Source: a virus. From it: a stretch of 26,600 bases of DNA. Positions 10,132 through 26,353 of this stretch are shown here, piece by piece (positions within the stretch are counted from its first letter, which is position 1; the number at the start of each line of letters is the position of its first letter). Location of the stretch: IMG/VR virus record IMGVR_UViG_3300030329_000680, positions 1 through 26,600 of that record, one strand, 5' to 3'. A model generated the notes under the pieces. The model made no database searches. It worked only from the letters and a program-made list of their open reading frames with translations, and had not been told where the DNA came from. The position numbers were made by a program, and so were the translations under genes.

Positions 10132-10377
10132 TCATACACCCTGATCCTTCTGCCTAGCAAAAAACTCTTTCATACTAGATTGTAACTGACCTTCATTTTC
10201 TTTAGGATCCAACTTATCATAACCATTCCGTTTTTTCCATTGATTATACATTGCTCCCATCATCCATGATTGAGAAAGACTATGAGGCCCATCTCTCAAT
10301 AACTCTGCTTGTCGGCCAGTGTGGTATGGAAGAGATTCTTCTCTCCAATTAGAATCATCATAAGGTTTTTTATCCAT
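10132..10377 (-). CDS. Small protein of unknown function (81 aa)
   Basis: The gene overlaps the stop of the predicted internal protein by eight bases and ends 18 bases before a terminator. The peptide is polar with a Trp/Met-rich middle ('SQSWMMGAMYNQWKKRNGY') and a charged helical tail ('SSMKEFFARQKDQ'). It lies in the same late-promoter unit as the internal protein, so it may be a late or virion-associated protein. No family is recognised. Confidence 0.78.
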   Translation of the reverse strand: MDKKPYDDSNWREESLPYHTGRQAELLRDGPHSLSQSWMMGAMYNQWKKRNGYDKLDPKENEGQLQSSMKEFFARQKDQGV

Positions 10378-10885
10378 AAGTAAAAGTCTTTCCTTTGATT
10401 TGTGATTGCCCCTCTGGGTTTTTACCTTGAGGTTTAAATTTACCTAAACCAACTCTCTTAGTTGATCCTAAAGGTCTTTTATTCTTTGGTTTTGTACCTA
10501 GTCCACCTTTTCTAGTTGCGGATAGTGTACCAGTTTTTTTCGTTTGTGTCAATACAGAGTCTTGTCCATACTTCTTACCTAGTGACTTAACTGCTTTCTT
10601 GAATGCTCTCTTACCCTTCTTTCCAGAAGTGACAACATGACTTCTTTCCTTTACTCTCTTCTCCTTACCATCATCACCCTTCTCTACATATGAACCCGTT
10701 ACCTTCGTAGCACCAGGCAATCCCTTACCTCTTATGTCTCTATCTAATTGTTTTGCTCTTGCACGATTCTCTTTTGCAGACTTATCATCTCTGGATGCTG
10801 ACATCGTAGCAATTCCACCTTTATCAGACTTGGATTTTATTCTACTTAAACTACTTTCTTCTAGAAATTCTTTGAAAGTCTTCAT
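10370..10885 (-). CDS. Predicted internal capsid protein with T4-type targeting peptide
   Basis: The 171-residue protein starts 'MKTFKEFLEES'. T4 internal proteins (IPI-IPIII) start 'MKTYQEFIAE'. That ten-residue capsid-targeting peptide brings them into the prohead, where gp21 cuts after Glu10. Here Leu8-Glu9-Glu10|Ser11 fits the gp21 rule (L/I)-x-E|(A/G/S) at the same position. The rest is very basic (Lys/Arg, Gly and Ser, no Cys or Trp; for example 'KKGKRAFKKAVKSLGKKYGQ'), as expected for a protein packed with DNA and injected with it. A late-promoter-like AATAAATA lies 24 bases upstream. Homologous C-terminal function is unknown. The alternative is an unrelated basic late protein. Confidence 0.72.
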   Translation of the reverse strand: MKTFKEFLEESSLSRIKSKSDKGGIATMSASRDDKSAKENRARAKQLDRDIRGKGLPGATKVTGSYVEKGDDGKEKRVKERSHVVTSGKKGKRAFKKAVKSLGKKYGQDSVLTQTKKTGTLSATRKGGLGTKPKNKRPLGSTKRVGLGKFKPQGKNPEGQSQIKGKTFTYG

Positions 10886-11024
10886 TATCAGTTACACTAT
10901 TATAGTAGTATTTATTCTTCTTTATCCTTAACTCAATTCCATGAAGTTCCAACAGTGAGATCTTGGTATCAGTCATTTCCTCACTATAAAAAATAAGAGG
11001 TTGTTTGGTACAGTCACCACTCAT
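10851..11024 (-). CDS. Small protein of unknown function (57 aa)
   Basis: A 57-codon frame starts as ATGA on the stop of the coiled-coil gene, with AGGAGG seven bases before the ATG, which is a strong start signal. It ends 35 bases inside the internal-protein gene in another frame, and the late-type motif of that gene lies within its coding region. The middle is hydrophobic-helical ('ISLLELHGIELRIKKNKYYY') and the end is basic. It fills a 135-base gap that would otherwise be empty. Confidence 0.72.
   Translation of the reverse strand: MSGDCTKQPLIFYSEEMTDTKISLLELHGIELRIKKNKYYYNSVTDNEDFQRISRRK
10909..10916 (-). promoter_or_regulatory. Late-promoter-like AATAAATA before the internal-protein gene
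   Basis: AATAAATA on the minus strand has one mismatch to the T4 late box TATAAATA. It would start RNA near 10902, about 17 bases before the ATG at 10885. This fits late expression of a capsid-packaged protein. Confidence 0.55.
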
Positions 11025-11253: not shown

Positions 11254-11631
11254 TTATTTTTTTCTTACTGGTACATCAATAGTCCATGAGGATGATTCTA
11301 ATTTAACTAGATCAAAGTTTTTCTTAAACTCCTTTTCTCTTGCTTTTCTTTCCTTCTCCATTGTTAATTCAATGGTTTCAATAGTTGTACTTGGATTCTT
11401 CTCTTTTATTCCCAAGTAATCCAAGACAGCATCATCAACCATACAATAAAGTGTATCCCATGTTAAGGTATCTCTTAATCCAGTTGCGATACGATCAATA
11501 TCACCACCATCTAAGTACTCACCCTTGTTTATCTTATCTGAGTAATCATCATACTGAGAAATAAGTTTTGCTCTGATCTCTACCAACTCATTAAGGTTGA
11601 TAGTAATCTTCACATCGTCGTAGATTGCCAT
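11254..11631 (-). CDS. Protein of unknown function (125 aa)
   Basis: The gene starts 22 bases inside purN and is read in another frame. It begins with a beta strand ('DVKITINLNELVEIRAKLIS'), then an acidic helical middle ('GGDIDRIATGLRDTLTWDTL') and a strongly charged helix with 'KERKAREKEFKKNF'. It ends 'TIDVPVRKK'. There are no membrane segments or known catalytic motifs. The close overlap with purN suggests co-translation but not a shared pathway. Confidence 0.78.
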   Translation of the reverse strand: MAIYDDVKITINLNELVEIRAKLISQYDDYSDKINKGEYLDGGDIDRIATGLRDTLTWDTLYCMVDDAVLDYLGIKEKNPSTTIETIELTMEKERKAREKEFKKNFDLVKLESSSWTIDVPVRKK

Positions 11632-12146
11632 GAGTTAATAACAGAAGGTAATAGACCATACTCCAGTCGTTGTATAGCCTTGGTCAAAGATTCAACAGTA
11701 TCATCGGGAAGAATAGGAACTTCCTGTTGTGCTATTATTGTACCACCATCTAACTCTTCTGTCACGTAATGAACCGTACATCCTGTGACACTATCTCCAC
11801 TGTCCATTGCCTGTTCTACTGCATTCAACCCTTTATACTTTGGAAGTAATGATGGATGAACGTTTATCATAGGAGCAGGAAAAGCATCAGGATTTTTAAT
11901 CACTCTCATATATCCTGCAAGGATTATAAGATCTACTCTCCATGCTTTAAAGAGTTCTATCATCTTATCTTCATCTTTATGAGGGACTCTTACATGAGGA
12001 ATTCCAAATTTTGCTGCTCTCTTCACAGCACCACATTGTTTAGTGTTGTGTATCATCAACACAACTTCATGTTTATTACATACGGGATTTGTAACTATGT
12101 TCTCGAAGTTGGTTCCGTTACCAGAACACATAATTCCTAATCTCAT
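11610..12146 (-). CDS. purN: Phosphoribosylglycinamide formyltransferase (PurN)
   Basis: PurN transfers a formyl group from 10-formyl-tetrahydrofolate to GAR in purine synthesis. The 178-residue protein is slightly shorter than bacterial enzymes (about 200). 'GIMCSGNGTNFENI' near the start binds the phosphate. 'MINVHPSLLPKYKG' carries the catalytic Asn and His, and 'GCTVHYVTEELDGG' carries the catalytic Asp. Folate-site 'ILAGYMRVI' is also present. Cyanophages often carry purine-synthesis genes, taken to support nucleotide supply during replication. It is joined by ATGA to the 51-aa gene before it. Confidence 0.94.
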   Translation of the reverse strand: MRLGIMCSGNGTNFENIVTNPVCNKHEVVLMIHNTKQCGAVKRAAKFGIPHVRVPHKDEDKMIELFKAWRVDLIILAGYMRVIKNPDAFPAPMINVHPSLLPKYKGLNAVEQAMDSGDSVTGCTVHYVTEELDGGTIIAQQEVPILPDDTVESLTKAIQRLEYGLLPSVINSWQSTTM

Positions 12147-23724: not shown

Positions 23725-25188
23725 TTACATAAGGTTCTTAACAGCAACACGTCTGTAGTAACGGTTAGCGTTAATGTGTAGAACACCAAGTCCTTGACCT
23801 TTACCATCGGCAAATGGGTTCGCAACGATTCCGTAACGAGTCTTAAATCCGATTTTTGGCTGGAAACTGTTCTCTCCAACTGCACGAACCATCTGTAGTG
23901 GAACGTATGGGCAGTAGAATATTCCAGCGTCATAAGGTGAAGTACCTTTATAACCAACAACGTAGTACTGGTTACCTGGAGTTGTGTTACCTAACTGAGA
24001 AGCACCACCAATGTTAGCAGCATAAGGGTCAATGTAGACTCTATACTTACCTTGAAGAACACCAGCGAATGTGTTTCCAGTCTCGTCAACGTTAAGGTTA
24101 GCATTAAGTGCTGGAGTGTAATCAAGTACACCTGCCATTGTTAATGCGGAAGCAACGTCTGCAGAGCAAAGGATGATGTTACCCTTTCCACGACGAGTTC
24201 TTTGAGCGATTGCGTTAGCATCTCTCTCGATCTGGAATAGAAGTCCTTTGAACTTCTCAACAGACCAACGACCATTTGAGTCAACATCTAGGTCGAATAC
24301 ACCAGCAGTAGCGGTGTTTTGGACAGCACCTTGTTCAGCAACCTTGTAGATAGTTCTGATAACTTCTCTGTTAATTTCAGCAAGTATCTCAGTACTAAGG
24401 ATGTTAGCAAGTTCTGCTTCTGCATTAAGACCGTGGATTGCCTTAAGGTCTTGAGCAAGCTCTAGTGAGTACTCAGCCTTTAACGCACGAGACTTCGCAG
24501 TAACAGTGACCTTCTCGATTGAGAATGCCATCTGGTTGAACGCCTTGTCACCAGTGCCGTGAAGATTCTCAGAATCTCCAGTCTTCATACCCTGACCAAC
24601 GTTGTATGGTGAAGGATCTGAAGTAGCAGTACCAACTGGGTTAAGTACAGATGGGTTGTTACCAGACTGTGCAGTTGTACCTAAACCAACACCACCATCA
24701 GTGGCAGAGTCGAGGTCATAACCTGCATCCTGTCCTGAGAATGCTGAATCTGGTTCGTTGTAGAATGCTTCTGTGCTTTCCTGACCACCTGATCCACCAG
24801 ACATGGCGTTGTACTTGGATCTCATCGCAAAGATAAGTCCAGTAGGACCACTCATTGGTTGAACACCAGCAAGGTCATATGCGACCAAGTTTGGCATTGA
24901 ACGACGAATAAGACTGATTAGAACGGGGTCGAAACCAGCTTGTGGACCTGCAGCAGTTGCATCACTACCAAAACCACCTTGAGCACCTGCGGCGTTTGCG
25001 TGGTTAGTAGGAACTGCTTCGTTGAGCATACCGCTTTGACCGAAAGCAGTAGACTCTCTTAAAAATTTTTCTTGGTTTTCTAGCAGGACGGCCGTTACGG
25101 CTCTACGATGGGGATCTTTAATTTCTTCGCAACCTTCATGGTTAAGAAGAGGTGCCCACTTTTCCTGCAACTGTTCTGATTGGAACAT
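23725..25188 (-). CDS. 23: Major capsid protein gp23
   Basis: gp23 forms the hexamers of the T4-type head. The 487-residue protein (T4: 521) is the usual cyanophage form. It begins 'MFQSEQLQEKWAPLLNHEG', and the propeptide should be cut by gp21 at Leu55-Asn56-Glu57|Ala58, since 'MLNEAVP' fits (L/I)-x-E|(A/G/S). 'DPVLISLIRRSMPNLVAYDL', 'GPTGLIFAMRSKYN' and 'LVAYDLAGVQPMSGPTGL' are hallmarks of the family. The Asp/Gly/Ser-rich 130-200 region is the variable insertion domain. GGT in an otherwise weak ribosome region precedes the ATG, and TTTAAATA lies 37 bases upstream. Confidence 0.98.
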   Translation of the reverse strand: MFQSEQLQEKWAPLLNHEGCEEIKDPHRRAVTAVLLENQEKFLRESTAFGQSGMLNEAVPTNHANAAGAQGGFGSDATAAGPQAGFDPVLISLIRRSMPNLVAYDLAGVQPMSGPTGLIFAMRSKYNAMSGGSGGQESTEAFYNEPDSAFSGQDAGYDLDSATDGGVGLGTTAQSGNNPSVLNPVGTATSDPSPYNVGQGMKTGDSENLHGTGDKAFNQMAFSIEKVTVTAKSRALKAEYSLELAQDLKAIHGLNAEAELANILSTEILAEINREVIRTIYKVAEQGAVQNTATAGVFDLDVDSNGRWSVEKFKGLLFQIERDANAIAQRTRRGKGNIILCSADVASALTMAGVLDYTPALNANLNVDETGNTFAGVLQGKYRVYIDPYAANIGGASQLGNTTPGNQYYVVGYKGTSPYDAGIFYCPYVPLQMVRAVGENSFQPKIGFKTRYGIVANPFADGKGQGLGVLHINANRYYRRVAVKNLM

Positions 25189-25240: not shown

Positions 25241-26353
25241 CTACTTAAATGCTGAAAGAGTCTTCATATAAGATGCCATTGATCCAGAATGAATTTCTGG
25301 TGCAGAAGCTTCTCCTTCTGTAAGAGTTTCAGTCTTTGAAGTAGATGAAGTCTTTGAAGTGAAATAAGATTCCTTCAATGTCTCCAGTTTGTCACGATAA
25401 GTTGCCTCACTTTCAAACTCTACACTTTCAGCAAGTGAAGCGAGCTTCTCTTTCTGAGTAGCAGCAAGGCCACCAGAAACAGATTCTAAGATACCATCAG
25501 CAACGGACTCTGCGAGTCTACCGTTTAATGTGATATTCTTCTCAATTTGCTCATTGAGTTTGGTCTCCATATCATCTAATTTTTCTACCATGCTTTCTAG
25601 CACATCATATTTATCTTCAGGGATTGATACATAATTTTCTTCAAAGAGACTTCTCATTCCAGTAAGGAATGATTCAGTCAATTCTGTTTTGAGTCCGTGC
25701 TCGATGGCGAGTTGATTTTCTTCCATCCACTCGTCAGATACGTACTCAAGATATGAGTCTACACGCTCAGTAAGTGCTTCTTTTTCTTCAGCAACTTCTT
25801 CAGCGAGTTTTTCTGCGTACTCCTCCTCAAGAGTAGCACGTATTTCAGAAATCTTTGAGTTAATAGCAGCTTCAAAGATTGTCTTTGCTTTTGCTTTAAA
25901 CTCTTCGGTGAGTTCTTCACCACCGAGAAGAGCATTAACATCATCTTCGATGTTAATTTCTTCTGTTGCTTCTGCTTCAGAAACTACTTCATCAGTAGTA
26001 ACTTCGTCTTCGGCAACTACATCACCTTGGATCTCTTCTTCCTCTTTAAATTTCTTTGCAGTAGGCATTGCTTGATCTCCAGGTTTTGCTCCTTTGTTAA
26101 CTACATCTCGGACTTGCTTCAGAGAGCCACCAGGTGTCTTCAACTTAGCAGAATCATTATCTACTTTGTAGTTTTCTGGTGTTGGACCACCTAAATCCTC
26201 AAAAGGTGGTGTATTCCCTGGTGTCGAAACACCTGATGGATTACTACCTTCTTTTGGAAGTGCCATATCTCCAGCTGCTGCATTTGCATTTACAGCAGTC
26301 TTGGATTGCTTTACGTCCTCTTCCATTCTTTGTAATGTTGTGCCACGAGACAT
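25241..26353 (-). CDS. 22: Prohead core scaffold protein gp22
   Basis: gp22 is the main scaffold inside the T4 prohead and is degraded by gp21 as the head matures. The 370-residue protein is longer than T4 gp22 (269) but has the expected composition: a Pro/Gly-rich N-terminus, an acidic low-complexity section (about 100-135), and long charged helices ('EEYAEKLAEEVAEEKEALTE'). Several gp21-type sites are present, such as Leu-Ala-Glu|Ser ('GRLAESVADG' and 'SLAESVEF'). It lies between gp21 and gp23, as in T4. The C-terminal 'HSGSMASYMKTLSAFK' is typical of cyanophage gp22. Confidence 0.95.
   Translation of the reverse strand: MSRGTTLQRMEEDVKQSKTAVNANAAAGDMALPKEGSNPSGVSTPGNTPPFEDLGGPTPENYKVDNDSAKLKTPGGSLKQVRDVVNKGAKPGDQAMPTAKKFKEEEEIQGDVVAEDEVTTDEVVSEAEATEEINIEDDVNALLGGEELTEEFKAKAKTIFEAAINSKISEIRATLEEEYAEKLAEEVAEEKEALTERVDSYLEYVSDEWMEENQLAIEHGLKTELTESFLTGMRSLFEENYVSIPEDKYDVLESMVEKLDDMETKLNEQIEKNITLNGRLAESVADGILESVSGGLAATQKEKLASLAESVEFESEATYRDKLETLKESYFTSKTSSTSKTETLTEGEASAPEIHSGSMASYMKTLSAFK

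Follow-up and report, generated by a model that had tools for sequence, protein, structure and literature searches.

The IMG/VR virus contig IMGVR_UViG_3300030329_000680 (positions 1 to 26,600, a complete 26.6-kb contig that we call the window) raises the question of whether a T4-like cyanophage carries an enzyme inside its head and delivers it with the genome. The open reading frame (ORF) in question lies on the minus strand. A sequence-only reading had picked it out as a very basic 171-amino-acid ORF that starts with MKTFKEFLEE↓S (arrows mark the bond in question throughout), and we verified its position, strand, and composition. It contains no Cys or Trp, and the predicted mature part of 161 residues has 44 Lys and Arg versus 13 Asp and Glu and a pI of 10.7. 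We found that the ORF joins a T4-type capsid-targeting sequence (CTS) to a domain of the S-adenosyl-L-methionine (SAM) lyase family. We propose, with a probability of roughly 0.7, that this lyase is virion cargo that is packed by means of its CTS, cut after Glu10, and ejected with the DNA, lowering SAM in the host. The features of the ORF are as follows.

10373..10885, minus strand (stop codon, 10370-10372): CTS-tagged SAM lyase family ORF of 171 amino acids, identified by PF23780 and Foldseek
10856..10885, minus strand: CTS, residues 1-10 (MKTFKEFLEE), identified by likeness to T4 IPI, IPII, and IPIII
10853..10864, minus strand: predicted gp21-type cleavage site Glu10↓Ser11 (L8-x-E10↓S11), identified by conservation in homologues
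10382..10807, minus strand: SAM lyase domain PF23780, residues 27-168 (Pfam E = 1.6e-18)

The N terminus resembles the targeting sequences of T4 internal proteins

The T4 internal proteins IPII and IPIII (AF158101) start with MKTYQEFIAE and continue with Ala after Glu10. IPI, from the same record, starts with MKTFKEFTSTTT...ITE↓A (MKTFKEFTSTT), and its residues 1 to 7 are the same as those of the lyase ORF, whose start is MKTFKEFLEESSLSRIK. Residues 4 and 7 of the T4 CTS determine targeting, and residues 8 and 10 determine processing (PMC9026906). We found that the lyase ORF agrees with T4 at all four positions. It was the single match to this 4/7/8/10 pattern among the 43 ORFs of the window, versus 0.007 matches expected from composition. 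When the window was pooled with two reference proteomes, seven proteins matched, versus a mean of 0.09 in shuffled sequences (maximum of 2 in 400 shuffles).

Among 80 metagenome relatives, the sequence is nearly constant from ESSL(S/A)R onward, and the peptide before it is variable. These upstream peptides include MKTFKEFLE, MKTYKEFMQ, MITFQEFCSRLD, and MKTFNEFCSQLD, each with the form hydrophobic-x-Glu and then Ser. At four loci (L039, L041, L042, and L043), an unrelated N terminus of ~60 residues that ends in EIDE↓SSLAR replaces the 10-residue CTS, and some relatives carry two tandem sites (e.g., MKTFQEFVLE↓CSQIDE↓SSLNR). Judged by these comparisons, the lyase N terminus is a separable module.

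The predicted cleavage site is conserved

We aligned 25 diverse homologues and found that E10 is invariant and that S12 and L13 are at least 90% conserved. The [L/I/M/V]-x-Glu↓Ser boundary is retained in most homologues despite the varying peptide upstream. It reads DIQE↓SS in P-TIM68, SLEE↓SS in S-CREM2, ELEE↓SS in S-H34, and ALSE↓SS in an Alishewanella phage. These data suggest that the lyase would be cleaved at Glu10↓Ser11.

Two head proteins encoded in the window bear on the specificity of the protease.

25241..26353, minus strand: gp22 scaffold (prohead core), phrog_237 (E = 4e-106)
23725..25188, minus strand: gp23 major capsid protein, phrog_138 (E = 7e-170)

We found nine [LIVMF]xE↓[SAG] sites in gp22, six of them E↓S, versus 3.4 in shuffled sequences; only 6 of 2,000 shuffles reached nine. 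In gp23, FLRE45↓S and MLNE57↓A are candidate propeptide sites. We identified no gp21 gene on the window contig. The excess of sites in gp22 is in keeping with a gp21-type protease that would prefer the hydrophobic-x-Glu↓Ser bond. When we searched the N-terminal 30 residues of S-CREM2 proteins for [LIMV]xE[SAG] at any position and ignored the aromatic positions, we found no enrichment among virion proteins (P = 0.38). Therefore, the cleavage site alone is not diagnostic.

A homologue was detected in purified cyanophage virions

Mass spectrometry of CsCl-purified S-CREM2 virions detected ORF6, which is 57% identical to the lyase ORF, by 19 unique peptides that cover 26.3% of its sequence; the authors of that study suggested that the protein counters restriction after entering the cell (PMC10665884). 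We applied a T4-derived CTS pattern ([FYL] at position 4, F at 7, a hydrophobic residue at 8, and E at 10) to the full set of 219 S-CREM2 proteins. The pattern picked out ORFs 6, 13, 14, 136, and 154, which are 5 of the 52 virion-detected proteins, and none of the 167 others (P = 6.5e-4). Relative to the detected nonstructural set, the count was 5 of 28 (P = 4.4e-5). These proteins are the SAM lyase, an APH-like kinase, a cytidylyltransferase, and two hypothetical proteins, none of which is a classical structural protein. Because they are differently annotated, the peptide is their common feature. The Cas9-like virion protein ORF12 has a CTS-like peptide at residue 19. We also observed that ORFs 6, 12, 13, 14, 136, and 154 of S-CREM2 (OR473000.1) have in common a near-N-terminal F/L-x-x-F-(L/M/F)-x-E.

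S-SM1 virions likewise contain a cytidylyltransferase (PMC3037559), and the virion cytidylyltransferase of S-SZBM1 carries a CTS peptide that is shifted by one residue (MRFRQFIIE↓A). S-SM1 was left out of the pattern tests because detected proteins are not flagged in its record. The sequence-only reading had proposed an injected internal protein with a CTS like that of T4 and a gp21-type site. This part of it is supported by a homologue that is found in virions, by the recurrence of the pattern on further virion cargo, and by wide conservation of the E↓S boundary.

The mature part is a SAM lyase family domain

The lyase ORF scored 67.4 bits against PF23780, versus a curated cutoff of 28, and the same family was matched by all 25 diverse homologues (E ≤ 0.01) and by the T3 SAM lyase. 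The PHROGs label for the ORF is phrog_2226, "SAM-dependent methyltransferase"; the record of the T3 SAM lyase is likewise labeled methyltransferase. We found no match for the ORF in NCBIfam or PADLOC. Searching the PDB by sequence, whether with the lyase ORF alone or with a profile of its family, returned no SAM lyase; these were found by the fold search alone. For the fold search, we used an AlphaFold2 (AF2) model (pLDDT, 63) that drew on 25 homologues from the window and from metagenomes. In the Foldseek comparison with the PDB, ranks 1 to 7 were all phage SAM lyases (probability, 0.98 to 1.00), among them the T3 SAM lyase in complex with SAM synthetase (8bb1, E = 5.4e-4; 7ock) and Svi3-3 (6zm9 and 6znb). 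In a profile-profile comparison with the T3 lyase, the SAxR, N, and TGxY motifs aligned, as did the Q-D pair. By profile and predicted fold, the mature part is a SAM lyase family domain.

The active site of Svi3-3 consists of Gly56, Tyr58, Glu69, Ser71, Gln104, and Glu105, of which G56, E69, and Q104 are conserved in active SAMases (PMC7877911). The putative equivalents in the lyase ORF are G64, Y66, E80, S82, Q108, and D109, with E80 assigned by alignment position and not from a solved structure. We found that G64, E80, S82, and Q108 are invariant in homologues of ~31 to 98% identity; D109 reaches at least 90% conservation, and the T3 enzyme likewise has Asp there. The invariance of the four residues argues for retained catalysis.

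The mature part had been taken for a low-complexity, DNA-bound or DNA-packing protein. In contrast, we found a PF23780 domain that keeps its active-site residues. The suggestion of a "new anti-defense factor" becomes more specific, pointing to an enzyme family already known in anti-defense that is here in an unusual use. A homologue family with a role outside the virion had been named as evidence against the idea. This applies in part, to the T3 SAM lyase, an early cytoplasmic enzyme, whereas the closer cyanophage branch is virion associated.

A late-promoter-like motif precedes the lyase gene

10909-10916, minus strand: AATAAATA, late-promoter-like, 23 nt upstream of the lyase ATG

A late-type sequence directly before the gene was also part of the initial description. 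The octamer AATAAATA by itself showed no enrichment across the window. TAAATA occurs within 60 nt upstream of 9 of the 38 window genes, versus ~2 expected, and these include the genes for gp22, gp23, and the tail tube. Therefore, a late promoter before the lyase gene is plausible. We dropped the conservation of the upstream TAAATA in several homologues as promoter evidence, because the peptidase gene that comes before has a conserved 3' end and the motif lies within it.

CTS peptides occur on unrelated cargoes

In a 210-kb relative whose lyase is 88% identical, three ORFs matched a DNA form of the CTS pattern, versus none for a reversed control pattern. They encode the lyase, a cytidylyltransferase (MKSFFQFFTE↓S) of a family that is repeatedly present in cyanophage virions, and an 82-amino-acid basic protein. 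We then scanned IMG/VR for MKT(F/Y)xEF(hydrophobic)xE without regard to cargo and obtained at least 85 matching ORFs. Residue 11, which the pattern leaves free, is Ala, Ser, or Cys in 69 of 85 among the matches listed. These fall into at least 41 cargo clusters, and 30 of 41 have a small P1' residue, versus a background of 22% taken from whole proteomes (P = 4e-12). An earlier control for residue 11 (26 sequences with a hydrophobic residue 8, 54% small) was dropped as small and probably contaminated with CTS variants. SAM lyases predominate in the largest cluster among the matches listed, which has 26 proteins. A CTS-tagged ADP-ribosyltransferase (L153:6037-6813; ART-PolyVal, E = 9.7e-24) is a further cargo and parallels T4 Alt. 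Several further cargoes that we had judged by eye to be ADP-ribosyltransferases were rejected, as none except L153 had a Pfam match.

The domain also occurs behind internal CTS-like peptides. PSSM4_093 of P-SSM4 (L287:3339-4007; T4-GC 110) has a C-terminal PF23780 domain (E = 1e-6) after YYQDFIKLVE↓GN, and gp194 of S-SZBM1 (OL473597 123252-125375; T4-GC 110 by homology) has a similar C-terminal domain after FITYREFIAE↓GN. This arrangement suggests that each may be a polyprotein cut by the prohead protease. Both are larger proteins located in the gp16-gp17 region.

We lean, if only slightly, toward a general capsid-loading code in marine T4-like phages. According to this model, a CTS of the form MKx(F/Y)xxF(L/I/M)xE, cut by the prohead protease at hydrophobic-x-Glu↓small, would load swappable, unrelated enzymes that act on the host at injection. 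The cargoes would be the SAM lyase (among the commonest), the cytidylyltransferase, the APH-like kinase, the ADP-ribosyltransferase, and the Cas9-like nuclease.

SAM lyase as virion cargo and alternative explanations

Packaging of the lyase in the virion is well supported. Its late expression and its CTS-driven entry into the prohead core are proposed from the CTS motif, the proteomics of a homologue, and the promoter-like TAAATA. The steps that would come after entry into the prohead are modeled on T4 and on the biochemistry of Svi3-3 and the T3 enzyme. According to this model, the lyase is made late in infection with its 10-residue CTS, MKTFKEFLEE, which would bind the prohead core and bring the protein into the prohead. 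A gp21-type prohead protease would then cut at L-E-E↓S, and what remains among the packaged DNA would be a basic enzyme of ~17 kDa. By analogy, the lyase would be ejected along with the genome. In the new host, a PII-like trimer would cleave SAM to methylthioadenosine and homoserine lactone, and SAM-dependent defense (type I and III restriction-modification [R-M] and BREX-like systems) and methylation may lose their cofactor before early genes are expressed.

Charge might explain packaging without any enzyme activity. If the protein descends from a SAM lyase but has become a basic, DNA-neutralizing internal protein with a part in DNA condensation or ejection, this would account for the 44 Lys and Arg per 161 mature residues and the pI of 10.7. 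T4 internal proteins are basic as well, and the Lys-rich C-terminal third is low in model confidence. We consider this unlikely, because G64, E80, S82, and Q108 are among the few invariant positions, which is unexpected if charge alone were selected. Slightly less likely is an injected lyase that acts on another SAM derivative, such as the SAM-AMP of type III CRISPR signaling, or that binds the host SAM synthetase like the T3 SAM lyase. Phage SAM-AMP lyases are in the same superfamily and have the same Glu/Gln pair (PMC12255297), and the T3 enzyme inactivates MetK (PMC8406200); S82 and D109, on the other hand, agree with the SAM lyases.

Least probable in our estimate is an ordinary late or middle cytoplasmic SAM lyase whose CTS-like start reflects coincidence or ancestry and whose virion homologues are contamination. 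The T3 SAM lyase functions unpackaged, and the S-CREM2 authors, in a caveat on CsCl purity, noted that such proteins may have been copurified and not packaged (PMC10665884). This explanation is at odds with the 0.007 CTS matches expected in the window, with the detection in virions of all five S-CREM2 CTS proteins, none of classical structure, and with an E↓S boundary that is retained while the upstream peptide varies.

Several observations besides this caveat weigh against a virion-borne, active SAM lyase. The virion evidence comes from homologues, and the window phage is uncultivated. In the S-SZBM1 proteome, the strict CTS pattern had one match, which was absent from the virion-detected set; the S-CREM2 result was not replicated there. 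The AF2 model has only a moderate pLDDT of 63, the pairwise profile comparison gave a weak match to the T3 lyase (E = 0.004; probability, 8%), and the Y66 position is Trp in some homologues. With such a high Lys/Arg content, DNA binding could outweigh catalysis. Finally, marine picocyanobacteria are reported to be mostly without R-M and CRISPR (PMC9602691), and the anti-restriction step is therefore weakened.

Genome context of the lyase gene

The window comes from a T4-like cyanophage, and the following genes are all on its minus strand: gp22, gp23, the tail-tube protein, uvsY, uvsW, gp55, gp46/47, gp44/62, regA, gp45, and cobS. Of the isolates that match the lyase ORF over its full length, the Prochlorococcus phage P-TIM68 is the nearest. 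One small ORF overlaps the 3' end of the lyase gene.

10132..10377, minus strand: 81-amino-acid ORF, phrog_16908 (PHROGs match)

This ORF adjoins the lyase gene in 66 of 75 homologous loci, and its product is a possible functional partner of the lyase. Also near the lyase gene is a phage purN-like glycinamide formyltransferase gene (11610-12146, minus strand; phrog_9240); P-TIM68 has purM in a similar place. In S-CREM2 and S-H34, which are cluster C cyanophages, the lyase gene is directly downstream of a DNA adenine methylase gene. This pairing is odd because the methylase requires SAM.

Comparison with known systems

SAM lyases, CTS-bearing internal proteins, and a cyanophage virion SAM hydrolase are already known; what is new is the link to the CTS and its spread. 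We found no literature on a CTS in cyanophages, in a search that mostly excluded subscription papers and so leaves absence unproven; the sole text with both "cyanophage" and "capsid targeting sequence" was a T4 review. The familiar role of SAM lyases is that of anti-restriction enzymes expressed early, and placement in the capsid would remove the lag that is the phage's weak moment under restriction. The CTS rule may serve to predict from sequence which proteins are injected effectors in viruses that rank among the most abundant in the ocean, most of whose "hypothetical" or "regulatory" virion proteins lack an explained route into the head; in one published proteome (S-CREM2), it picked virion proteins with no false positives.

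The window lyase shares with the T3 gp0.3 SAMase and Svi3-3 (PF23780) the domain, the predicted PII-like fold, and equivalents of the Gly/Tyr/Glu/Gln-Asp active site, and with the T3 enzyme a SAxR...N motif. The T3 enzyme is produced early, within the host cell, and lacks a CTS, whereas the window lyase has a CTS, is very basic, and follows a late-type promoter motif. S-CREM2 ORF6, annotated as "S-adenosyl-L-methionine hydrolase (virion protein)," differs from it in its length of 414 amino acids, its C-terminal extension, and its longer N-terminal peptide, MKDFDSFLEEFDRDQESLEE↓SSL; the text of the S-CREM2 paper (PMC10665884) makes no mention of a CTS or of protease cleavage. In the T4-GC 110 proteins, the SAM lyase domain is C-terminal in a larger protein and the CTS-like peptide is internal, whereas the CTS of the window lyase is N-terminal. 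T4 IPI, IPII, IPIII, and Alt resemble the window lyase in their N-terminal CTS (positions 4, 7, 8, and 10 as in IPII and IPIII), their basic character, and their injection, which for the lyase is predicted. The likeness extends to a 10-residue propeptide, whose removal by gp21 is predicted for the lyase, and to the logic of counterdefense (PMC12373910). T4 IPI to IPIII inhibit GmrSD restriction enzymes and have Ala at P1'; in contrast, the window lyase belongs to an unrelated enzyme family and has Ser at P1'.
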